From Streptomyces sp. NBC_00820 (GTDB lineage: Bacteria; Actinomycetota; Actinomycetes; Streptomycetales; Streptomycetaceae): a DNA stretch of 64,000 nucleotides. The translations under genes and the position numbers were made by a program. Shown here piece after piece: positions 52,650 through 63,556 of the stretch (position 1 is the stretch's first letter; every line of letters begins with the position of its first letter). The stretch is from contig NZ_CP108882.1 in NCBI RefSeq assembly GCF_036347055.1, forward strand, positions 7,986,001 through 8,050,000, read 5' to 3'. Under the pieces are notes generated by a model, which saw only the letters and a program-made list of their open reading frames with translations, ran no database searches and was not told where the DNA came from.

Positions 52650-53774
52650 TCAGCGTGTCCAGGGCGACGGCCAGGGCTGGGGAAACGCCGGCGTGGTCGG
52701 TCTTTGCTGCGGGGCGCCGTCGCGCAGCTGAGGCAGCAGGGGCGCACCCGGAGCGAGTAGCGCGCGGAGACAGGGCAGGGGGAGGGCTTCTTGTCGCAGA
52801 ACCAGGCCGTCGGTGAGCAGCTGCGCGACTGACGGTGCGATGTGGGGCGGGAGCCAGGCGGCCGCGGCGAGGGCTTCGTCGGTGGTGGCGGGTGGGTGAG
52901 GGCGCGGCCGCCCGGTGAGGAGGGCATGGTAGAGGCCGGTGGCGGGCAGCAGCGGGGGAAGGCCGGCGGCCTGTGCGCGGTGGCTGGTCTGCTGGGCGCA
53001 GTGCAGGCCGTCGAGGTCGAGGTCCGCGTACATCAACAGGGTCTCCACAGGGTGGTCGCGTTCGCGGAAGGAAGTCAGGGCGGTGGGGATGGAGGCGACG
53101 AGCTGGTCACCGGATCCGAAGCCGAGCCAGCCCACCTGGCTGCGGTCGGGCCAGGCGCCGAAGATCTCCCGCAGGCTGGTGAACGCGGCGGTGTTCTCCA
53201 CGACGAGCATCCAGGGTGCGGGCCCGAGTTCGAACATGGCCAGCGGGGCGGGGGTGGGCCGGGCCCGAAGATGCACGGCGACGTCGAGGAGCCCTTTGAC
53301 CACGAGATGGTGGCGGTCGATGTCCTTGAGGCGTTTCTCGTCGCCGTACAACTGGTAGGAGCGGTCGGCGATCGGAACGATCTCGGCATCCGGCTGGTCC
53401 CGCAGCAGCGTGTTGAGGGGGCCGAGAAGCGCGTGGTCGGCGGCGGTCAGGTTCAGGGTGCCGGCGAAGGACAGCTGTTCCACGAACGCCCGGGGCGCCG
53501 GCCGGGGCCGGGACGAGCGGGCGGACTGCAGGCGCTTGACCCACCGGGGCAGCGGCGGGTGGGCGCTGCAGTCCCAGCCGGCGCTGCCCTTGGGCAACTG
53601 GGCCAGGCCACGCTGTTGGAGGGTCTGAGCCGCGTCGGCGAGGATGCGGCGGCGCCCGGGCGAGGTGGCCAGACTGGAGTCGCCTGCGTCGGCGGCGCCC
53701 GCCAGCGCATCGAAGTCGACGCGCTGGCGGGACTGCTGGGCGAGGTGGACGGCCATACGGTCGGCGGCGCTCAT
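52650..53774 (-). CDS. jetD: JetD-like Toprim nuclease, Wadjet
   Basis: 374 residues. The C-terminal half has the Toprim-type pattern of JetD/DUF2220-DUF2399: VVENTAAFTSL (Glu near 193), GFGSGDQL, and 'LLMYADLDLDGL' with the DxD metal site. The N-terminal half (SRQRVDFDALAGAADAGDSS onward) is an arm-like helical region. In Wadjet, JetD cuts plasmid DNA that the JetABC motor has extruded into loops. The start overlaps the jetC stop by ATGA. Subtype is not assigned. Confidence 0.8.
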   Translation of the reverse strand: MSAADRMAVHLAQQSRQRVDFDALAGAADAGDSSLATSPGRRRILADAAQTLQQRGLAQLPKGSAGWDCSAHPPLPRWVKRLQSARSSRPRPAPRAFVEQLSFAGTLNLTAADHALLGPLNTLLRDQPDAEIVPIADRSYQLYGDEKRLKDIDRHHLVVKGLLDVAVHLRARPTPAPLAMFELGPAPWMLVVENTAAFTSLREIFGAWPDRSQVGWLGFGSGDQLVASIPTALTSFRERDHPVETLLMYADLDLDGLHCAQQTSHRAQAAGLPPLLPATGLYHALLTGRPRPHPPATTDEALAAAAWLPPHIAPSVAQLLTDGLVLRQEALPLPCLRALLAPGAPLLPQLRDGAPQQRPTTPAFPQPWPSPWTR

Positions 53775-56700
53775 CCGGCATCCCCGGCATCCACTTCGGG
53801 GGTTTGTGGGGCGTCAGGAGCAAGGACGCTGCGGCGCAGGAGGCGGGCGGAGGCGATGCCCTCGTCCTGGGCGCGGGTGACACCGTCCGCGACGGCGTCA
53901 CCGTAGCGCTCGAGGATCTGGACGTAGCGGCGCTTGGTGTGCAGGTCCATACCATTGCGCATGCGGACGATGAGGGGGAAACGGCCCAGTGCCGGGCGAT
54001 CGTTGGAACCGGTGGTGTACACGAGCTGGATGCCGTGGGCACCGGCGACGCGGCGCTGCAGATCGACGAACGGCCCGTAGTTGGCCTTTCCGAAAGGGTT
54101 GTCCAGGACGAGTGTGCCCACGCCGCCGGGGACGCGGCGGTCGCGCTGGGCGGCACGCATCCGGGCGAGTGTGCAGTACAGCAGCACGGAGACGGTCAGG
54201 AGTTCGCCGCCGCTGAATTTCTGGATCTCGGTGACGGACTCACGTTCGACGGTGTCCAGGTTCTGTGTCGGCTTGATGATGCGCGCGATGATGTTGCCGT
54301 GGCCGCCGAGCGCCGCCAGGACCAGCTGCTTGGCCAGTGGCATCGCGTCGGGCAGGGCGCTGGCCCGGCCGGCGGCGCCGGCCGGCAGCGAGGAGATGAG
54401 CCGGTCGACCTCGGCGGACAGCCTGCGCGCGAGTTCGTCCCCGCGGGCGCGCTGGCGCAGCTCCAGCGACAGGAACCGCTGCTTGGACCAGCTGCCCAGA
54501 TTCCCGGGCAGCCGGGAGTGGCGTGCTACTTCCTCCACACTGTCGAGGACGGCTTCGACCGTGCTCGCGCAGGCGTCGACGACCCGGGCATGGTCCTCCT
54601 CGGACTCGGCGAGCAGCCCGGTGACCTGTCGTTCGCGTTCCTCGATGTCCTCCAGCAGCGCGGCCAGCCGGGGCTGCAGGCTGAGGTCCTGTTGCAGGCG
54701 TTCGCGCAGTCGGCCGTCGACGACGGCCGCGTACTCCGGCTGCAGGGCGAGCCGTTCCACTTGCTGTACGTACTTGCGCAGGGCGTTCTTGGCGTCGTCG
54801 TGGGCGCGGATCGCCTGGAAGACCTCGCGGGTGATGACGTCCTTGATTCGCTCGGCGTCCTGCGGCTGCAGGGACCGCACGGTGAGGGCGGACAGGCCGT
54901 GCCGTTCAAGGAGCAGCGCGTCCACGCCCGGTTCCAGGTCGCCGTCGTTGCCCTGGCCGGGCTGGCGGTCGGCGGCCGCGTTGAGACTGCCCGCCGACTG
55001 CCGAAGCTGTGCGGCCTGGCCGGCCGCCAGGTCGGCGGAGCGGTGCGTGCGCTCGGTGTCCAGGCGCCGCACCTGGGCCAGCGTGCGGTCCTGCTCCAGC
55101 CGCTCCTCTTCTGCGCGCAGTTCCTCCTGGGCGGCTCGGACGCTGGGGAAGGAGATCCGCTCCGTGCCGGGAGCAAGGTCGTCCAGGGCTTCGGCCGCCT
55201 TCTGGTGAGCCTCCAGGGCCTGGCGGTGGAGGAGATCCGCTTCGTGCTCGGCCCGGTCGGCCTTCCTGCGAGCCTCCGCTGCGCAGGCGATGCGGTCAGT
55301 GAGGCGGTCGGTGTCGGCTGCCCCGGCCTGCTGGGCGAGCTCTGCCGCCCGCGCGCGTGCCGCGGAACCAGCCCGTGAAAGGTCCTGGTTGAGAGCGTCG
55401 ATGGCCGTCTGGGCGGCGGTGAGCCGCTGCTGCAGCGTGGTGTCGCTGATGCCGTCGCGCCAGTCCCGACGGGCCTGGCCCCAGCGCTCACGCAGCGCCT
55501 GCAGGCTCCCGCCCGGTACCGTGGCCGGATGTGTCCGGCTGCGGACTTCATCCGTGAGTTCCTGGCGGATCTCTTCCAGCCAGCCGGCCCAGCGTTCCCC
55601 ACGCTCCCGGCACTGCCCAAGCGTTGCCTCCGCGGTCCGTCTTTGCCCCTCGGCGTTCGTGCACCGCTTCTTCAACTGCTGCACGGCGGCGCGGTGTTCG
55701 CGTGCCTCGGTCCGGGCCTGCCGGCGTTCTGCCGTCCAGTGCGCAGTGGCGCGGACCGCCACTTCCAGGGCCCGGACCTGGGGAAGCGTCTGGGCGAGCG
55801 CCATCAGCGTGTCCGTGTGCTGGGCGAGCCGTCGTTCCGCTTGGCCCGCGCTTTGCGCGGCTTCCTCTGCCTCGCGGGCCAGCATGCTGGTGCGTTCGGT
55901 GAGCGTGTTCACTTCGTCGTCGAGCCGGCTGAGCAGTTCCTCCCGCGCGGCGCGTGCCCGGGGCCCGAACGATTCCAGGTGCGCCCGCAGCCGCCCGCAG
56001 AGGGCACGGTCGCCCTCGCGCCGTTTGGTGACGGCCCGGAGGCGGTCCTCCAGTGTGTCCAAACGCGCGGTGACGCGGCGCAGTTCCTCCTCTCCCGCCT
56101 CCAGGTCGAGAGCCGAGGGGCGGACGGGCAGGACGGCGATGTTTCCCGGTTCCCGCAAGAGCAGAGCCCGCGCCTCGTCGTCGCTGCTCACGGCGATCAC
56201 CGTGGGCAGCGAGACGTCGGCCTGCCGGGCCAGAGCCGCCAGGTCACCACCGGGCACCGGCCCGCAGATGACCACCCCGCCGATCAGCTGGGGGATGGCC
56301 GCGATGACCTCGTCGTGCCGGTGGGCGGGCAGGGTCTCGCGCAGGAACTGCATTCCCGAAACGGCGTTGGCACCGCGGTTCTGCAGGGCGGCAACCGCCC
56401 GTTCGACCTCCCGGGGCGGCGGACAGAACCCGTCCTGCTCCAGCGCGTCGCGCAGCCGCCGGTCCTCCGACGCCCGGGCATGCTCGGCGGCCAGTTCCGT
56501 GTCTGCGTGGGCGACCTGGTCGGTGAGCAGCGCGATGAGGTCGCTGCCCACCGCGTCCACATCCACCGATTCGCCGCCGGTGCCCGCCAGTTCTGCCAGA
56601 CGCGGCTCGGCTGCCAGGTCACGGCGTTCGCGCGCCAATGCGTTCCACTGGTCCCACACTTGGTCGTGCCGCTGCCGTGCGGTACTGAGCTGGTCGGCGC

Positions 56701-58342
56701 ACGACAGACGTTCTGTCGCGATGCCGGTGCTCCGCTCCCGTGCTGCCTCCCGTTGGCGCCGCGCCTGCTCCACCTGTTCCCGGGAGGTCTCTTCCTCGCG
56801 GGTGAGGCGTTCCAGAGCGGCATGCGGCTCCTCCTGCCCTCCGAGAACCCCGCTCGCACGGGCGGCCACGATCTCCGCCTCTCCTTCCGCGCAGCGGGCT
56901 TCGGCCGAGGCCGCGCGGCTGTCCGCGCGGCCGATCGCGCTCACCGTCTTCTCGAACTCCCGCTCGGCCGCCTGGAGCCGGGCGGCGGCCGTCTCAAGTT
57001 CGGCGCGGGCCTGTTCCTCCTCGCCCGAGAGCCGGCCGAGCCCCTCTTCGAGCCTCGCGTACAGGGCGGTGCCCGCCTGCTCCACGGCCTCCCGCAGCGG
57101 GGCCTGCTCGCTGTGGAGATCTTCCAGCAACTGTTTGACCTGCCGCAGCTCGGTCTCCCGGCCCGCCAGGTCCATGAGCAGGGGAACCGCCTGCCATGCC
57201 GTGTGTTCCCGCTCGGCGGAGTCGGCCGCCTCGATGCGCCCGGCATGCTCGCTCGCACAGTCGCTCACCCGCAGCCGCGCGGCCGCCTCGCTCACCGCGG
57301 CCACGCGGTGGCCCCGGCCCTCGACCCGGTCGTCGGCCTCCTGTGCCTCCTGCGCGTAGGCCTCGGCGCGTTCGCGCAATGAGCCCGACTCCTGCTCCAG
57401 ATGGGCGGCCTGGGTCTGGAAGTGCTCGCCGGCACGTCGGGCCAGCTGGACCTGCCGGCCCAGTGCCTGCTCGGCGAGGGCGGCTTCCGCCGTGGCCTTC
57501 TGCACCGGTCGCAGCCGCAGGACGGCCTCGGCGAGGAACCGCTGTTCCAGTTCCCGTGCGGGCCGGGCCGCCAGTTTGTCGGCGTGTTTGGACAGCGCCG
57601 CACGTGCTGCCGTGGGTGCGGCGGCATCGACGATCATGTCGATGAGGAAGTTGATGAACTCCTCGGCCGTGCGGAACTTGAACAGCTCGGTGATCCCTCC
57701 TTCTTCCTGGTTCATGACCTTCTGGATCATGAAGACCTGAGGGTCCAGACCGTGATTGCTCAGCTGCTCCTCCCAGCTGTACTGCTCCTCCGCGACCACC
57801 AACTGCAGCCGCCGCTGCAGTTGGTGCGCGGCTTCCAGGGCCTTGACGTAGGAGGTCATGCTGAGCTGGAGATCCTCGGCACGCACGGGCAGGGAGTCCA
57901 GTTCCAGCCCGCCGGGCTGAGGCCGCAGAAGATACCAGCGGCGTTCCAGCCGTTCCCACCCGCTGCTCAGGTCGGCCGGGCGCTGTCCGTCGCGCCACTG
58001 GTAGACCCCGCCGGTCACCAGTACCGCGCCGGCCGTGGGCCGTTCGGAGTCTCCCCATTCAGCGATCACGTGCGAGACCTGCTCGCCGGGAATGTACTCG
58101 GCGAGCGACTTGGACTTGAGCGCCCCGATGAAGTCCTTCTTGGCGGGCAGTAGCAGGCTGAAGAACAGAGAGAGCAGACTGGACTTGCCGCCGCCGTTGC
58201 GCAGCCAAAGGATCACGTCCACGGGCTGCATGGGCCGGCCGTCGATCGAGCCCGGACCGCCGGTCAGGTCCAGGACGAGCGATTTGAAACCGGCCGCGCG
58301 GTGGCCGATGTTCTCCAGACGAATACGTCGCAGTTGGAGCAT
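53771..58342 (-). CDS. jetC: JetC-like SMC ATPase, Wadjet
   Basis: 1523 residues. N-terminal ABC head with LRLENIGHR..., Walker A LRNGGGKSSLL at 48-58, then about 1200 residues of heptad coiled coil with hinge-like breaks around 560-720. The C-terminal head has the signature KFSGGELLTVSVLLY and Walker B TLVLDNPFGKANY. It is the MukB/SMC-type loop-extruding motor of a Wadjet plasmid-defence complex. Coupled on both sides: 3-base gap to jetB and ATGA overlap with jetD. Length exceeds the typical ~1100-1350 residues. Confidence 0.85.
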   Translation of the reverse strand: MLQLRRIRLENIGHRAAGFKSLVLDLTGGPGSIDGRPMQPVDVILWLRNGGGKSSLLSLFFSLLLPAKKDFIGALKSKSLAEYIPGEQVSHVIAEWGDSERPTAGAVLVTGGVYQWRDGQRPADLSSGWERLERRWYLLRPQPGGLELDSLPVRAEDLQLSMTSYVKALEAAHQLQRRLQLVVAEEQYSWEEQLSNHGLDPQVFMIQKVMNQEEGGITELFKFRTAEEFINFLIDMIVDAAAPTAARAALSKHADKLAARPARELEQRFLAEAVLRLRPVQKATAEAALAEQALGRQVQLARRAGEHFQTQAAHLEQESGSLRERAEAYAQEAQEADDRVEGRGHRVAAVSEAAARLRVSDCASEHAGRIEAADSAEREHTAWQAVPLLMDLAGRETELRQVKQLLEDLHSEQAPLREAVEQAGTALYARLEEGLGRLSGEEEQARAELETAAARLQAAEREFEKTVSAIGRADSRAASAEARCAEGEAEIVAARASGVLGGQEEPHAALERLTREEETSREQVEQARRQREAARERSTGIATERLSCADQLSTARQRHDQVWDQWNALARERRDLAAEPRLAELAGTGGESVDVDAVGSDLIALLTDQVAHADTELAAEHARASEDRRLRDALEQDGFCPPPREVERAVAALQNRGANAVSGMQFLRETLPAHRHDEVIAAIPQLIGGVVICGPVPGGDLAALARQADVSLPTVIAVSSDDEARALLLREPGNIAVLPVRPSALDLEAGEEELRRVTARLDTLEDRLRAVTKRREGDRALCGRLRAHLESFGPRARAAREELLSRLDDEVNTLTERTSMLAREAEEAAQSAGQAERRLAQHTDTLMALAQTLPQVRALEVAVRATAHWTAERRQARTEAREHRAAVQQLKKRCTNAEGQRRTAEATLGQCRERGERWAGWLEEIRQELTDEVRSRTHPATVPGGSLQALRERWGQARRDWRDGISDTTLQQRLTAAQTAIDALNQDLSRAGSAARARAAELAQQAGAADTDRLTDRIACAAEARRKADRAEHEADLLHRQALEAHQKAAEALDDLAPGTERISFPSVRAAQEELRAEEERLEQDRTLAQVRRLDTERTHRSADLAAGQAAQLRQSAGSLNAAADRQPGQGNDGDLEPGVDALLLERHGLSALTVRSLQPQDAERIKDVITREVFQAIRAHDDAKNALRKYVQQVERLALQPEYAAVVDGRLRERLQQDLSLQPRLAALLEDIEERERQVTGLLAESEEDHARVVDACASTVEAVLDSVEEVARHSRLPGNLGSWSKQRFLSLELRQRARGDELARRLSAEVDRLISSLPAGAAGRASALPDAMPLAKQLVLAALGGHGNIIARIIKPTQNLDTVERESVTEIQKFSGGELLTVSVLLYCTLARMRAAQRDRRVPGGVGTLVLDNPFGKANYGPFVDLQRRVAGAHGIQLVYTTGSNDRPALGRFPLIVRMRNGMDLHTKRRYVQILERYGDAVADGVTRAQDEGIASARLLRRSVLAPDAPQTPEVDAGDAG

Positions 58343-58345
58343 TCT

Positions 58346-59092
58346 TCAGTCCTCCTCGACCAGATGGGCGCGGCGCAGGTCGCACAGCACGGTGAACGCC
58401 GCCGAGGCGGCTGCCTCTCGTACCTGCACGCGGAAGCGGTGGGCGAGCCGGTAGTGGCCCGCCCCCAGGTCGTCGGCCCGCTGGGCCATCCCCTGTTCCA
58501 CCAGCCAGTCGAGCGCCTCCTTGATCACCCGTCGGGTGCTCGACTCCGACAGCCGTCCCGTCGGTGTGGGGCGCGATGCGGGGAGTTTGGCGTAGACCCG
58601 CCAGGCGGCCTGGAGTTCGGGATGGGCCACGGTCAGCCCGTCCGCGTCCTTGGAGGCTTCACGGAGCCGGTCGGTGAGCCGGCGCAGGAAGTCGTCGACC
58701 TCGGCCAGCGAGATCCGTCTGACGCTCTGCTCCTCCAGGTCGGCGGGAGTGGGGTAGGCGCGGGCCGCGATCGCCACATGCGCGAGTCCCAGGACGAGGC
58801 GGTCCTTGACCCCCAGCTTGGGATGATCCTTGAGGCGGTAGGACAGCCAGGATCCCTCGCGGGGGTGCAGGATCAGTCCTTCGCTCTGATGGGCCTCGAT
58901 CACGTCCAGGTCGAGGCCGTCGGCGACGGCGTCCGCCGCGTCGCGGAACGGGCCGTCCATCCGGTAGCGCTGCAGCAGGGCCCGGTAGCGGGGGAGACTC
59001 AGGGGACGCAGACGCGGCTGGCAGCCGAAGCACACCAGGGCGGAGGCGTCGGCCAGGTCGGCCGGGGAGTAGACGTTCGCGGCAGTTGTCAT
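58346..59092 (-). CDS. jetB: JetB-like KITE subunit, Wadjet
   Basis: 248 residues with winged-helix-rich KITE character: an N-terminal part 'SALVCFGCQPRLRPLSLPRYRALL', a central HTH, and a C-terminal winged helix STRRVIKEALDWLVEQGMAQ followed by GHYRLAHRFR. It matches the MksE/DUF4194 position in the four-gene order. It would bridge the kleisin and the SMC heads. The start overlaps the jetA stop (ATGA). Confidence 0.7.
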   Translation of the reverse strand: MTTAANVYSPADLADASALVCFGCQPRLRPLSLPRYRALLQRYRMDGPFRDAADAVADGLDLDVIEAHQSEGLILHPREGSWLSYRLKDHPKLGVKDRLVLGLAHVAIAARAYPTPADLEEQSVRRISLAEVDDFLRRLTDRLREASKDADGLTVAHPELQAAWRVYAKLPASRPTPTGRLSESSTRRVIKEALDWLVEQGMAQRADDLGAGHYRLAHRFRVQVREAAASAAFTVLCDLRRAHLVEED

Positions 59093-60726
59093 GCCAGGAC
59101 CTCCACGTCGTCCTCGGCGCGGGCGGGACCGGGGATTAGCGACTGGGCGGGGACGAGCAGCAGGTCGCTGCCGGCGACCGCTCCGAGATCGAACACGGTG
59201 CCGTCATCGAGGACCACCAGATGTTCCTCCAGCAGGTCAGCCAATTCGTCAGCCGTCCCTTCCTCCTCCTCGTCCTCCGGATCCGGCGCGAAGGCCCGCA
59301 GGACACAGACGGCCAGGAGGTCGGCGGCCTGGAGGCTGTGCGCCAGCGCCTGTTCCAGCAGCCGGGACAGGCGCACCGGCATGCCCAGGGCCTGCGTGAG
59401 GAGGCTGCGGGCGACTGCGACGTCCTCATTGCTGAAGAGGCCGAACTCACCGGGGTCATCCGCGATCAGCTCGATCTCCTCGTCCGCGAACGCCTCCCGC
59501 ACCGCGCGTGCCGGAGCCAGCAGCGAGGCCCACCAGTCCCGCAGCCGCGGCCGGTGCGCGACCACCGGTCCGCCGGCCGCGTCCGCGAAGATGCTCGCGA
59601 CCGCCTCGGCGTCGTCGGCGCCGAGGTCCAGCAGCGGTTCCAGCACGTCCTCCTGCATCCCCACCAGCGCAAGGCGTGGGGGAGGCCTGAAGCGCTGCTC
59701 GGCCTGGGAGCGCAGGAACGCCGGGCGGGCGTCGATGACTTTCTCCAGGAGCTGGGTGTGCCGCAGATGGGCCCGTCCCAGCAACCGCAGGATCCGCTCG
59801 CAGGTGCGCCGTACCTCCGCGTCGTCCACATCGTTGCGGACCTCACGCATCCACTCCATCAGGTCGCGCTCCACCCGGTGGCGTTCGCGAAGATGCGCAC
59901 GGGAAGTCTGAAGCAGCCTGGGGACGTCCTGTCCCCAGTCCACGGCCCGTACATCGCGCTCGGTCTCCTCCAGTACCGCCCGTACCCGTTCGCAGTACAT
60001 GAGGGACAGCTTCAGGCTCTCCGCCGCGCTCTCCTCGGCACGTCCCCACCGGTGGGTGCTCACCTGGCGGCGCAGCATCAGGTCCTTCGCCGCCTGCACG
60101 TCCTCCAGATCGTGTTCGAGTCCGGACAGCAGGAGATTGATGGCCGGGGTCGTGGCCCGCAGCACGGCCTGGCCGCGTCGCCCGAATCCCTCCTCCAACA
60201 GCCGCACGGACAAGGTCACCCTGCTGTGGCCCTCGCGGTAGTCGCTGTAGGAGACGTCGAACTCCTCCCCGTCCTGCGCGTCGTTGAGCAGCTCACGCAG
60301 GACGAACCGAGCCACCGCCAGATGCTCCGAGGCATCCCGCGCGGGCGCCGCTGACGCCGCCAGGGAGGCGAGGAACTGAATCACCTCCTCCGTGGTCGCC
60401 TCCGCCTCCATCTCCTGCTGGCTGACCACTGCCTCCAGCGCGGCCAGGGCGAGCGTGCGAGGGTCGTAGAGCCCTCGGGGGAACCGCTGCCAGGCGCTGC
60501 GTTGATCGATGCGGTGCAACGGCACCCCGCGGGCGAGAACCGAACTGCGCCGGACGAAACCCGGCTCAGCAACCAGCGCACGCCACTCGTCGACTCCGTC
60601 GGGAGCCGCCGGCACCGAGACCAGCAGCCGCCGCTCCTCCCGGTCCAGCAGGGCCTGGAGCATCGTGTCGGGACCGTCGTCCTGCGTACAGTCCGGGCCG
60701 TGGGGGGATGCCTTCGTCTCTGTCAT
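59089..60726 (-). CDS. jetA: JetA-like kleisin subunit, Wadjet
   Basis: 545 residues from ATG 60726; no strong ribosome-binding site is seen, so the start is less certain. The protein is helical, with long amphipathic stretches (AKDLMLRRQVSTHRWGRAEE, 'RVRAVLEETERDVRAVDWGQDVPRLLQ') as in MukF/MksF-type kleisins, and an acidic C terminus. Assignment rests mainly on its position as the first gene of a four-gene operon with JetB, JetC and JetD. The promoter is in the divergent region 60727-61024, which contains an A/T-rich tract just upstream. Confidence 0.65.
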   Translation of the reverse strand: MTETKASPHGPDCTQDDGPDTMLQALLDREERRLLVSVPAAPDGVDEWRALVAEPGFVRRSSVLARGVPLHRIDQRSAWQRFPRGLYDPRTLALAALEAVVSQQEMEAEATTEEVIQFLASLAASAAPARDASEHLAVARFVLRELLNDAQDGEEFDVSYSDYREGHSRVTLSVRLLEEGFGRRGQAVLRATTPAINLLLSGLEHDLEDVQAAKDLMLRRQVSTHRWGRAEESAAESLKLSLMYCERVRAVLEETERDVRAVDWGQDVPRLLQTSRAHLRERHRVERDLMEWMREVRNDVDDAEVRRTCERILRLLGRAHLRHTQLLEKVIDARPAFLRSQAEQRFRPPPRLALVGMQEDVLEPLLDLGADDAEAVASIFADAAGGPVVAHRPRLRDWWASLLAPARAVREAFADEEIELIADDPGEFGLFSNEDVAVARSLLTQALGMPVRLSRLLEQALAHSLQAADLLAVCVLRAFAPDPEDEEEEGTADELADLLEEHLVVLDDGTVFDLGAVAGSDLLLVPAQSLIPGPARAEDDVEVLA

Positions 60727-60986
60727 GGAGTCAGTGCAGCAGCTGCCACTGACAAATAGAACAAAAGACCCTTGTTGGGGCATCCGTTCGGGCGCAGTCA
60801 AGGGGGTGAAGCGGGGGCCGGTCCGTGAGCGCCCTCTTGGTGCCGGTGGGGGTGTCTGTGCTCCCGTCCGGTCGGCGGGTCCCTGGCGCCCCCTCGTTAG
60901 GCGGTTGCCGACGACGCTGCAGTCCGCCATCGGCGGCAGGCTTCATGTAGGTGGTATTCGCATTCTCGTGTGCTTATTGCTGATTC

Positions 60987-61024: not shown

Positions 61025-61312
61025 ATGGGATTGGGGCTGGAGGAGTCGCTGCGGCTCACGGTGGCCGCACTGATGCAGGCGACAGGTGAGCCGCAGCGGG
61101 CGGTGGCGGACGTGCTTGGACTGACCCAGACGCAGGTCTCGCGTCGGCAATCGGGTGCCACTTCGTGGACTCTGCGTGATGTCGACACGCTGGCCGGACA
61201 TTACGGCGTCGCTGCGCTCGATCTGTTGTCCGGGCCGACCAGGGCGTGCGAAGCGCTGTCGGTCGGCCGCCGCCGCGGTATCCGGTCCGAGATGAAGAGG
61301 GCCGGCCGGTGA
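61025..61312 (+). CDS. HTH protein, first gene of a three-gene operon
   Basis: 95 residues from ATG 61025 with AAGGTGAAGG upstream. XRE-type helix-turn-helix: QRAVADVLGLTQTQVSRRQS, then 'LRDVDTLAGHYGVAALDLLSG'. The basic C terminus (RRRGIRSEMKRAGR) may add DNA contacts. GTGA overlap (61309-61312) couples it to the large gene downstream. It may autoregulate through the dyad at 60987-61005. Confidence 0.75.
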   Translation: MGLGLEESLRLTVAALMQATGEPQRAVADVLGLTQTQVSRRQSGATSWTLRDVDTLAGHYGVAALDLLSGPTRACEALSVGRRRGIRSEMKRAGR

Positions 61313-62835
61313 GCGACTACGACGCGATCGACTCACTGCTGGCCTCCGTCGGCCCGCAGGTGGAACTCCCGGCCCCGGAGCTCCGCCGTGGCCTGCGGGA
61401 GCGGGCGGGGCTGTCTAAAGCGCAGGTGGCCCGTGCGCTGGGAGTGGGCCCGTCCACGGTCGGCGGCTGGGAGAGCGGCCGGGACCCGGCCGGTGAGACT
61501 CGCGCCAAGTACGCGTACCTGCTGGAGGGTCTGACTACCAAGCTCGCCGAGGCCGATATGGCAATGCCGCCCGCTGAGCAGCCCGTGGCGGACGGCTTGG
61601 TAGACGCGGCATCGTCACCGGAGCCCGCGCAGGACTTCGACGAGGTGGAGACACTCACTGCTTTGCAGCCGTGCGTCTTGTGCGGTGCCCCGGCAGGTCA
61701 GCGGGTGGCGGGATTCGTCCAGCACCTGGACCCCTCCGACTGCCAGACAGTCCCCGCCGGAACTCCGAAGCCCCCGCCTGTCAGGGAAGCCCAAGTCCCG
61801 CGCACTGCACGCCCGCCCCGTCCGGCCGACGGGAAAGGCGCGGCCCCGCGCGGTCGGGCGTTCCAGGAGCCGTCCGGGCCTGCCGACTTGATCCACGAAG
61901 CGGTGCACGCCGTGCTCGCCGAGCACCAGGGCGATGTCGAAGCGGCGAGCGCCGCGTTGCTGAAGCGGGCCATCCCGGACGCGATGCGCCTGCTGGACGA
62001 GACCCGCAAGGGCGCCCGCTACGACGTGATCGCCCATCCCTGGATCCCCGACATCCTCAAGAAGCAGACCTCCAAGGGCGCCGACCAGATCTGGGAGGCC
62101 CGCCCCAAGTGGACGCGGCCCGAACTGCCGCCCGGGAAGCATGAGGTCACCGCACTCGACATCAACGGCGCCTATTTGAGCGCACTCAAGACCCACCTCC
62201 CGCTCGGCCAGCTGGAACACTCCACGGGCTTTGCACACGACCGGCGCCGCGCCGGAGTCCACCTGATCACCCCGCCCGCCTGGGAGCACGACGCGGTGCT
62301 GCCCAACCCGATCGGCCAGCGCGACGAACCAGGACCCCTGTGGGTCAGCGAACCGACCCTGCGCCTGCTGCTGCGCCTGTCCGGCCCGAAGCACCGCCTG
62401 TGCGAGCCGCCCGAGATCCACGAGTCCTACACTTCGGGCGCCACCGAGAACCTCCTGGAGAAGTTCCGGATCGCCCTCAAGGACGCCCGCGACACCGCGA
62501 TCGCAGACGGCGACGAGCTGACGCTTCAGTACGTGAAGGCGATGTACTCCAAGTTCGTGTCCACGATGGGGGAGTCGAACTACAACCGGGAGCTCTACCG
62601 CCCGGATTGGATGCACATCATCCGCTCCCAGGCCTTCGCCAACCTCTGGATGAAGGCACTCAAGGCACACGACGGGGGACTGGCTGTCGTACGGGCGATG
62701 GGCACCGACGAGCTCCACGTCATCGGAGACTGGCGCCGTGTCTTCCCCGAAGGCCGCTCGGTTACCGAGGTCAAGGTCAAGGACACTTACACCGCAGGAA
62801 CCGGCACCGACGCCGACACGGGGCAGGAGCAGTAA
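61309..62835 (+). CDS. HTH + zinc finger + PolB-like domain protein
   Basis: 508 residues. An XRE HTH spans residues 25-72 (RAGLSKAQVARALGVGPSTV). C122xxC125...H139...C145 looks like a zinc site. The C-terminal ~230 residues follow the order of a protein-primed family B DNA polymerase palm: motif A LDINGAYLSALKTHLPLG (Asp284), an LWVSEPTLRLLLRL strand, motif B K410-x2-Y413-SKF, and motif C 'MGTDELHV' with Asp467 where one of the two usual Asp residues is Gly. No exonuclease domain is visible. Gene order and size resemble tap of the Streptomyces telomere operon. The stop TAA directly abuts the next ATG. The polymerase relation is my reading by eye and must be tested. Confidence 0.6.
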   Translation: MSDYDAIDSLLASVGPQVELPAPELRRGLRERAGLSKAQVARALGVGPSTVGGWESGRDPAGETRAKYAYLLEGLTTKLAEADMAMPPAEQPVADGLVDAASSPEPAQDFDEVETLTALQPCVLCGAPAGQRVAGFVQHLDPSDCQTVPAGTPKPPPVREAQVPRTARPPRPADGKGAAPRGRAFQEPSGPADLIHEAVHAVLAEHQGDVEAASAALLKRAIPDAMRLLDETRKGARYDVIAHPWIPDILKKQTSKGADQIWEARPKWTRPELPPGKHEVTALDINGAYLSALKTHLPLGQLEHSTGFAHDRRRAGVHLITPPAWEHDAVLPNPIGQRDEPGPLWVSEPTLRLLLRLSGPKHRLCEPPEIHESYTSGATENLLEKFRIALKDARDTAIADGDELTLQYVKAMYSKFVSTMGESNYNRELYRPDWMHIIRSQAFANLWMKALKAHDGGLAVVRAMGTDELHVIGDWRRVFPEGRSVTEVKVKDTYTAGTGTDADTGQEQ

Positions 62836-63411
62836 ATGCCGGAGAAGAACATCGACTTCGGGAAATTCGGAGCCCGGGGCATCAGAGGCAGCGACGCCGT
62901 CGCCCGCCAGCTCGACCGACTCGCCGGCCACATCGCCACCCCGGTGACCGCCAAACGGGGCCTGATGGCACGCCTGCACTACCTGACGACATCGGACAGG
63001 ACCTGGCAGGCCGCCAAAGACGCCGGACTGACCGTGAGCGACCGGACACTGAAGGCATGGCTGGAGGACAGACGCCGTCCGTCGAAGGCCAACCTGGAAC
63101 GCATCGACGCCGCATACAGGGCGGTGCGGCGCCGCAACGTCGCCCGCCACCTCACCGCCCGCCTCAACCGTGAGGGCCGCGGCACCCGGGTGGAAATCCA
63201 CCCTCTCGACCAGTCCGGCGTGGCGCGCCCGCTCCAGCGTGTGGTGGAACACCGGTCGATGAACGTGCGCGGCTGGGACAAGATCGTCGGGTCCTGGGCG
63301 GCCGGCGACCATCAGGGACTGGACGACGCCTGGACCGCCGATGTCCTGCCCGACCTCGGCTCCCAGTGGGGCCAGTACGAGTACGTCAAAAACATCGGCT
63401 TCGCCGCGTAG
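62836..63411 (+). CDS. Small HTH protein, Tpg-like in size and position
   Basis: 191 residues starting immediately after the previous stop (TAAATG). Residues ~55-95 form an HTH (WQAAKDAGLTVSDRTLKAWL, 'RRRPSKANLERIDAAYRAVRR') of the type seen at the N terminus of Streptomyces terminal proteins, which are about 185 residues. The C terminus (LPDLGSQWGQYEYVKNIGFA) is shared with the relic at 5077-5298. Close similarity to known Tpg is not obvious outside the HTH, so a terminal-protein role is an inference from HTH, size and order. tRNA-fMet begins 65 bases later. Confidence 0.6.
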   Translation: MPEKNIDFGKFGARGIRGSDAVARQLDRLAGHIATPVTAKRGLMARLHYLTTSDRTWQAAKDAGLTVSDRTLKAWLEDRRRPSKANLERIDAAYRAVRRRNVARHLTARLNREGRGTRVEIHPLDQSGVARPLQRVVEHRSMNVRGWDKIVGSWAAGDHQGLDDAWTADVLPDLGSQWGQYEYVKNIGFAA

Positions 63412-63476: not shown

Positions 63477-63550
63477 CGCGGGGTGGAGCAGCTCGGTAGC
63501 TCGCTGGGCTCATAACCCAGAGGTCGCAGGTTCAAATCCTGTCCCCGCTA
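63477..63550 (+). tRNA. tRNA-fMet (CAU), initiator
   Basis: 74 bases fold into a full cloverleaf: acceptor CGCGGGG/CCCCGCT with an unpaired first position, D arm GAGC/GCTC, anticodon arm CTGGG-CTCATAA-CCCAG, T arm GCAGG-TTCAAAT-CCTGT. The C1:U72 mismatch and the three G-C pairs at the base of the anticodon stem mark it as the initiator. CCA is not encoded. tRNA genes are frequent integration sites, but no second copy of its 3' end was found in the window. Confidence 0.97.
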
Positions 63551-63556
63551 CTGCCA

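Follow-up and report, generated by a model that had tools for sequence, protein, structure and literature searches.

A putative second telomere-replication gene pair, with a predicted family B polymerase-like protein, near the chromosome ends of Streptomyces sp. NBC_00820

The window analysed here is a stretch of 64,000 nucleotides from Streptomyces sp. NBC_00820 (G000:C1:56389-120388, minus strand, of a single-contig genome of 8,106,388 bases; window positions are used for features below). It carries three coupled genes, orfA, orfB and orfC, the last two of which probably form a second, divergent telomere-replication pair of the linear Streptomyces-type chromosome, with orfB encoding a minimal polymerase derived from DNA polymerase family B (PolB). 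The gene orfB (61309..62835, plus strand, GTG start) encodes a protein of 508 residues with a helix-turn-helix (HTH), a possible zinc site and a PolB-like palm, a putative terminal-protein-primed polymerase, and orfC (62836..63411, plus strand) encodes 191 residues, the putative terminal protein that would serve as primer. The gene order, the conserved motifs, the predicted PolB fold, the C-terminal homology to the telomere-associated protein Tap and to pAL1.101 of the Arthrobacter linear plasmid pAL1, the location near replicon ends and the linkage to a gene of terminal-protein size were all observed. The predicted palm fold, gene order and domain homology are well supported, and they strongly suggest that the pair is a variant of the terminal-protein-primed telomere polymerases; Tap itself can also be read as a divergent member of family B. 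The first-pass annotation had described a three-gene coupled operon in front of a tRNA-fMet gene, and this is what was found: the open reading frames are joined by a GTGA overlap (orfA/orfB) and a TAA-ATG junction (orfB/orfC), and an initiator-like tRNA-Met gene follows.

The PolB-like domain of orfB covers residues 216-499 (61954..62805, plus strand) and matches residues 186-495 of phi29 DNA polymerase, a span that in phi29 holds the TPR1/TPR2 insertions. Motifs A, B and C had been predicted in the order typical of protein-primed family B polymerases, and both family conservation and alignment with phage enzymes bear this out. Motif A (62146..62187; residues 280-293 with D284; LDINGAYLSAL) aligns to phi29 FDVNSLYP, the motif B region (62530..62571; residues 408-421, YVKAMYSKFVSTMG; KAMYSKF) to NSLYGKF, and motif C (62692..62724; residues 462-472, RAMGTDELHVI) to YCDTDSIHL, all on the plus strand. 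The three motifs are kept throughout a 120-row alignment of close homologs. Conservation was also followed in the C-terminal domains of 23 diverse members (set A5: 17 orfB-like and 6 distant ones, among the latter pAL1.101 and a protein from a Brachybacterium plasmid), where D284 and the second Asp of motif C, D467, are each retained in 23/23 rows, and K410 and Y413 of motif B in 20 and 21 rows, respectively. The positions aligned with D284 and D467 are the phi29 metal ligands D249 and D458. Comparison of this set by hhalign with seven phage polymerases (A9: phi29, Voltaire, Curie, Cp-1, PRD1, BadAargau2 and LuzDeMundo) gave a probability of 94.9 (E = 4.6e-8, 203 columns), which pairs D284 with the Asp of phi29 motif A, MYSKF with LYGKF and GTDELHVIG with DTDSIHLTG; the six distant rows alone reached 91.2%. 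The controls were weaker (E = 0.46 for the reversed phage set, 0.19 for the best of 30 column shuffles) and, since the motifs are conserved in the family and in register with the phage enzymes, the set can be taken to lie beyond chance.

The first-pass annotation had also named PolB palms as the structures to compare with, and the predicted palm fold stands: the nine best PDB matches of the orfB model are all phi29 DNA polymerase, and the PolB domain ranks above all other folds listed. Neither of the outcomes it had set as grounds for rejection, a model lacking a palm or a secure assignment of both proteins to an unrelated regulator family, was obtained. This structure evidence, although it comes from a model, is independent of the diverse set and stands for orfB by itself. 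No exonuclease domain was found, as the fold alignment begins at phi29 residue 176-187; the N-terminus of orfB consists of the HTH and the zinc site, and the exonuclease part and the chain end of phi29 polymerase are left uncovered. The protein would thus be built of palm, fingers and perhaps a TPR-like part, preceded by an HTH and a zinc site. An alternative raised from the start was a transcription-regulator module, in which an XRE regulator is accompanied by an accessory protein. It would fit the HTH domains of orfA and orfB and the database names of their relatives (mostly helix-turn-helix proteins, where named, among the best 120 of 1913 orfB homologs at E ≤ 1e-5 out of 7993 scored candidates; mostly transcriptional regulator or hypothetical among the 120 listed of 860 orfC homologs at E ≤ 1e-3), but about 280 of the 508 residues of orfB make up the predicted PolB domain, which holds many family-invariant residues in the orfB-centred alignment A8, and we consider a regulator module highly improbable.

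The domain profile comparison also links the orfB C-terminus to Tap and pAL1.101, so that the first-pass suggestion of a priming or end-maintenance system is supported by fold and profile alike. Since a whole-protein hhalign of orfB and Tap aligned the HTH alone, the domains were compared separately, and the orfB-like rows by themselves then match the Tap C-terminal domain at 74.1% (E = 2.8e-5). The profile check proposed earlier for both proteins came out in favour for the orfB C-terminus and did not establish homology for orfC. Both orfB and Tap have an N-terminal HTH and a C-terminal PolB-like domain, homologous by profile and fold, a gene of terminal-protein size directly downstream, and often a place near replicon ends. 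They differ in length (508 residues for orfB, about 740 for Tap), and orfB lacks an exonuclease-like region, has a CxxC-H-C site and lies under the Tap equivalog cut-off. As for pAL1, its 1707-residue telomere-associated protein is pAL1.101, and the gene directly behind it, of 210 residues, is that of the terminal protein, pAL1.102. The C-terminal domain is homologous here as well (pAL1 and Brachybacterium proteins against the orfB-like rows: probability 98.1, E = 1.3e-13), whereas in place of the HTH and zinc site pAL1.101 has a weak, sub-cut-off match to a DnaG zinc ribbon. The C-terminus of pAL1.101 was reportedly found by Kolkenbrock in 2010 to keep PolB motifs, and the protein is said to label its terminal protein, which makes this part of the comparison less novel. 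With phi29, the pair shares the palm and fingers fold, the motif order and the arrangement of a polymerase gene with a terminal-protein gene; the differences are the missing exonuclease, the unmatched phi29 chain end, GTD instead of DTD in motif C, and a family that sits at bacterial chromosome ends and on plasmids. For a pRL2-type plasmid, a protein resembling both Tap and a helicase has been described together with a Tpg-like partner (PMC8743542). A palm domain that shares its chain with a DnaB_C helicase, and has a gene of terminal-protein size behind it, was found in this study and resembles that description; orfB itself has no helicase.

Tap and Tac have been shown to polymerise on terminal proteins, and the authors of that work report finding no polymerase motif and propose a new class (PMC4513846). 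From the sequence profiles and models, the core described above appears to be hidden in Tap as well. We lean, with some reserve, towards Tap, pAL1.101, the HTH-zinc family and its helicase-fused relatives being one lineage of divergent protein-primed family B polymerases, with Tap as a hidden phi29-type enzyme and the orfB family and its kin as the systems, so far missing, that patch the ends of many linear Streptomyces replicons without tap-tpg, including telomere classes without known proteins. The fold and profile evidence names the Tap residues to mutate, D453 and D669 in the numbering of the copy in this genome (L007:1486-3711). Among titles and abstract openings, no publication was recognised that assigns Tap or the orfB family to the family B polymerases; most subscription journals lie outside this scope, which makes this weak evidence of absence. 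A small protein-primed enzyme that lacks an exonuclease might also find technical applications.

In the N-terminal half of orfB, the XRE-type HTH that had been annotated at first was recovered at residues 24-77 (61378..61539, plus strand), with Pfam matches to PF13560 (E = 5.4e-10) and PF01381 (E = 4.6e-8). The four residues of the possible zinc site, C122-C125-H139-C145 (61672..61743, plus strand), are invariant in the 84 rows of the orfB-centred alignment. The Tap equivalog model NF047542 matches residues 4-196 (E = 1e-21) with 77.4 bits against a curated cut-off of 600. This match was not used as proof of Tap identity because it is carried mainly by the HTH; many Streptomyces HTH proteins reach 73-80 bits over the first ~150 model positions. 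Scans of orfA-orfC with Pfam, NCBIfam and PHROGs gave HTH and other weak families apart from this match.

The product of orfC has the size and position of a Streptomyces terminal protein, with 191 residues (about 185 for Tpg) directly behind a tap-like gene, and an HTH match under the Pfam cut-off (PF01381, E = 0.031); its analogy to Tpg rests on gene order, size, this weak match and location. T117 is present in 121/121 aligned homologs and is T or S in 18/19 diverse relatives, and is by conservation the best candidate for the priming residue. The priming residue of Tpg is T114, at a similar place in the chain (PMC3572947). S127 was considered as a match to T114 and is present in 120/121 close homologs; T117 is preferred because S127 is not conserved in the diverse relatives. 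Y49, Y94 and S176 are further conserved hydroxyl residues and also possible primers.

Catalysis, the priming residue, telomere recognition and the replicon ends served by the pair in this strain are inferred, and by analogy with Tap-Tpg and phi29 we propose the following. The HTH and zinc site of orfB would recognise and bind the folded 3' overhang of the telomere, and orfB would position the orfC protein and move the first nucleotide onto its hydroxyl, T117 being the best candidate, by two-metal chemistry through D284 and D467. It would then extend the primer by a few nucleotides, and a host polymerase would complete the patch, as for Tap with Tpg. The operon would be regulated by orfA (61025..61312, plus strand), whose 95-residue BetR-like HTH product (PF08667, E = 2.4e-6) is a likely regulator.

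The survey of neighbouring genes suggested by the first-pass annotation supports a two-gene system. Among the best 80 of 181 places in GTDB genomes that encode an orfB relative, an orfC homolog lies at most 300 bp behind orfB in 63, and an orfA homolog immediately upstream in 50. In the plasmid collection, 156 records match orfB, 78 of them over at least 80% of the query. Of 22 plasmid loci examined (21 from the match listing, and pAL1), 19 are annotated (L175, L181 and L191 are not); in all 19 the palm gene is directly followed by a gene of 173-241 residues, and 16 of the records are labelled linear. Of the listed plasmid copies that are covered to 90% or more, 52 were counted after removal of one duplicate record, and 30 of these are found in the outer 10% at either end of their records, a zone in which an even spread would place 20%. 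Near-identical strains and two or more records labelled circular are among these rows, so that the binomial p of 2.6e-9 makes the bias look stronger than it is. A primer-independent or repair-type enzyme resembling piPolB, with orfC not acting as its primer, would also be a compact PolB without exonuclease and would suit the copies that lack orfC. It is at odds with the linkage to a partner of terminal-protein size in 63/80 genomic and 19/19 annotated plasmid loci, with the terminal bias and with the homology to Tap and pAL1.101 (a comparison made without piPolB sequences), and we find it quite unlikely. Some of the plasmid matches listed are longer proteins that resemble orfB over residues ~190-491 alone; their annotations read DnaB-like helicase, acyltransferase or hypothetical. 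Four longer palm proteins were scanned: one carries DnaB_C and AAA (L102), one DUF927 (L108), pAL1.101 the DnaG zinc ribbon mentioned above, and one gave no match. The large fusions of the linear plasmids L102 (338 kb) and L108 (15 kb) have a C-terminal palm and a gene of terminal-protein size behind each, and from their sequences are possible one-polypeptide helicase-polymerase telomere replicases; the 1722-residue L179 protein is similar in appearance.

Several telomere classes of Streptomyces and many closed genomes lack tap-tpg, and their end-patching proteins are described as unknown (PMC8743542). Among 101 genomes of the genus, Tap scores over its curated cut-off in 67 and the diverse set matches in 94 (E ≤ 1e-8). 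Palms other than Tap were counted at E < 1e-35, a limit between the best Tap match (2.9e-28) and the weakest palm counted (9.2e-39). They are present in 24/34 genomes without Tap over cut-off versus 19/67 with it, so that in most of the former an end-patching candidate is at hand in this family, whose members go under the annotations HTH, helicase, acyltransferase or hypothetical protein; the remaining 10/34 have no such palm either. Both published gaps, the missing motif of Tap and the telomeres without it, thereby become testable. Three single-contig genomes among the 34 (G458, G443 and G460) have mirrored palm genes at both ends, 1.2, 3.7 and 14.3 kb in; in each, as read at the left end, a homolog of terminal-protein size lies between the palm gene and the telomere. 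The TAG inside the G458 palm match is the gene's own stop, where the open frame ends. In a phylum sample of 396 genomes (38 matching at E ≤ 1e-3), the listed matches outside the genus are confined to the first ~156 profile positions, i.e. the HTH, and the spread beyond Streptomycetaceae therefore rests on plasmid matches (one Brachybacterium locus and pAL1 examined).

In the present genome, orfB and orfC occur twice, at 57.0-59.1 kb and mirrored near the right end (8047309-8048832 and 8048836-8049408). A P0002-like fragment at 115094-115216 (~115.1 kb), P0002 being the orfC protein, is exactly mirrored too (P0001 and P0003 are those of orfB and orfA). Judging from these mirrored copies, the operon seems to be contained in a terminal inverted repeat (TIR) of at least 115 kb, both arms of which give identical protein matches for the pair. 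The linear or integrated element envisaged at first is thus replaced by the TIR of a linear-type chromosome, together with many plasmids, most of those inspected being labelled linear. The last 1500 bases are identical at both chromosome ends and hairpin-rich by eye; bases 1-180 and their mirror are rich in GCTGCGC-type hairpins. The archetypal 13-base palindrome I motif was not found in the contig ends, either because the assembly stops short of the true end or because the telomere belongs to a different class. Elsewhere in the TIR, at G000:C1:24773-25342 (~24.8 kb; L190:771-1343), there is a lone full-length P0002 paralog with 68% identity, which resembles, as does the short fragment, the lone tpg variants described for Tpg.

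Several observations weigh against orfB-orfC being a working telomere-replication pair. No polymerase is seen in orfB by Pfam, and against PolB the orfB-like rows of the diverse set alone give 49.0% (E = 1.7e-4), the orfB-centred alignment 3.5% (E = 0.012) and the Tap C-termini 0.3%; since these subsets fall short by themselves, the PolB sequence evidence is carried by the diverse set. Among the 23 members of that set, Pfam gave one weak DNA_pol_B_2 match (E = 0.16), a lead only, and in a profile search against PDB sequences the family alignment A1 matched HTH proteins and the diverse set nothing. The first Asp of motif C is replaced in 23/23 diverse rows, by Gly in 17 (G465 in orfB), which agrees with the degeneracy noted in the first-pass annotation. 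Together with the phi29 motif B Lys, which by eye has no counterpart in orfB, and the uncovered exonuclease part and chain end, this would suit a PolB relative that has degenerated and lost catalysis, its role being limited to binding telomere hairpins and bringing in the terminal protein while another polymerase does the chemistry. We hold this to be unlikely, as the two Asp aligned with metal ligands are invariant across very diverse rows and Tap, which has SDC at this position, with Ser in place of the first Asp, nevertheless polymerises in vitro (PMC4513846). Sequence homology of orfC to Tpg is not established: the profile comparison gave 6.7-15.7% over 54-56 HTH columns (E = 0.0017-0.0054; best of 10 shuffles 0.012).

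Also on this side, in 17/80 related loci no orfC homolog follows orfB at a distance of up to 300 bp, 3/19 annotated plasmid records are labelled circular, many plasmid copies lie mid-replicon, and the Fisher p of 9.4e-5 for palms against Tap absence is uncorrected for relatedness, includes drafts and uses a limit chosen post hoc. Such orfC-less relatives (e.g. L060, L066 and L098) have 3.6-6 kb of sequence behind them, and their primer protein may be made elsewhere, or they may have another role. Finally, orfB need not serve the ends of this genome, which has three canonical Tap genes: one per TIR arm at ~19 kb and a third at 7.72 Mb. At both loci inspected, tap is followed by a tpg-sized gene. 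The operon could then have reached the chromosome end by recombination of a linear plasmid and persist as a relic or hitch-hiker, working on plasmids but idle here, with Tap-Tpg patching the ends; this is compatible with a telomere-replication role for the family, and not for this copy. The many relatives on plasmids and the copies without an adjoining orfC fit such an origin. Idle genes are expected to decay, however, and all three genes are open, their junctions coupled and the protein matches of the two TIR arms identical; we give this explanation a minority chance, and prefer a functional telomere-replication pair.

The tRNA-Met (CAT) gene (63477..63551, plus strand) lies 65 bp 3' of orfC and is a neighbour outside the system; its GGG/CCC anticodon-stem pairs and unpaired first acceptor pair (by eye) fit an initiator. 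A same-strand tRNA-Met is found behind the pair in 13/80 related loci. The distance from the end of orfB to its start is ~0.64-0.73 kb in nine loci, the spacing also seen here, and 1.6-1.9 kb in the other four. Back to back with orfA-orfC and inside the TIR is a Wadjet type III-like anti-plasmid operon (52650-60930, minus strand), with JetA3 (E = 1.2e-104) at 59089-60930 and JetC3 (E = 1.5e-225) at 53771-58342, a 248-residue open reading frame without match between them and one of 374 residues behind. Wadjet acts on circular DNA, and here it adjoins a putative linear-end system.
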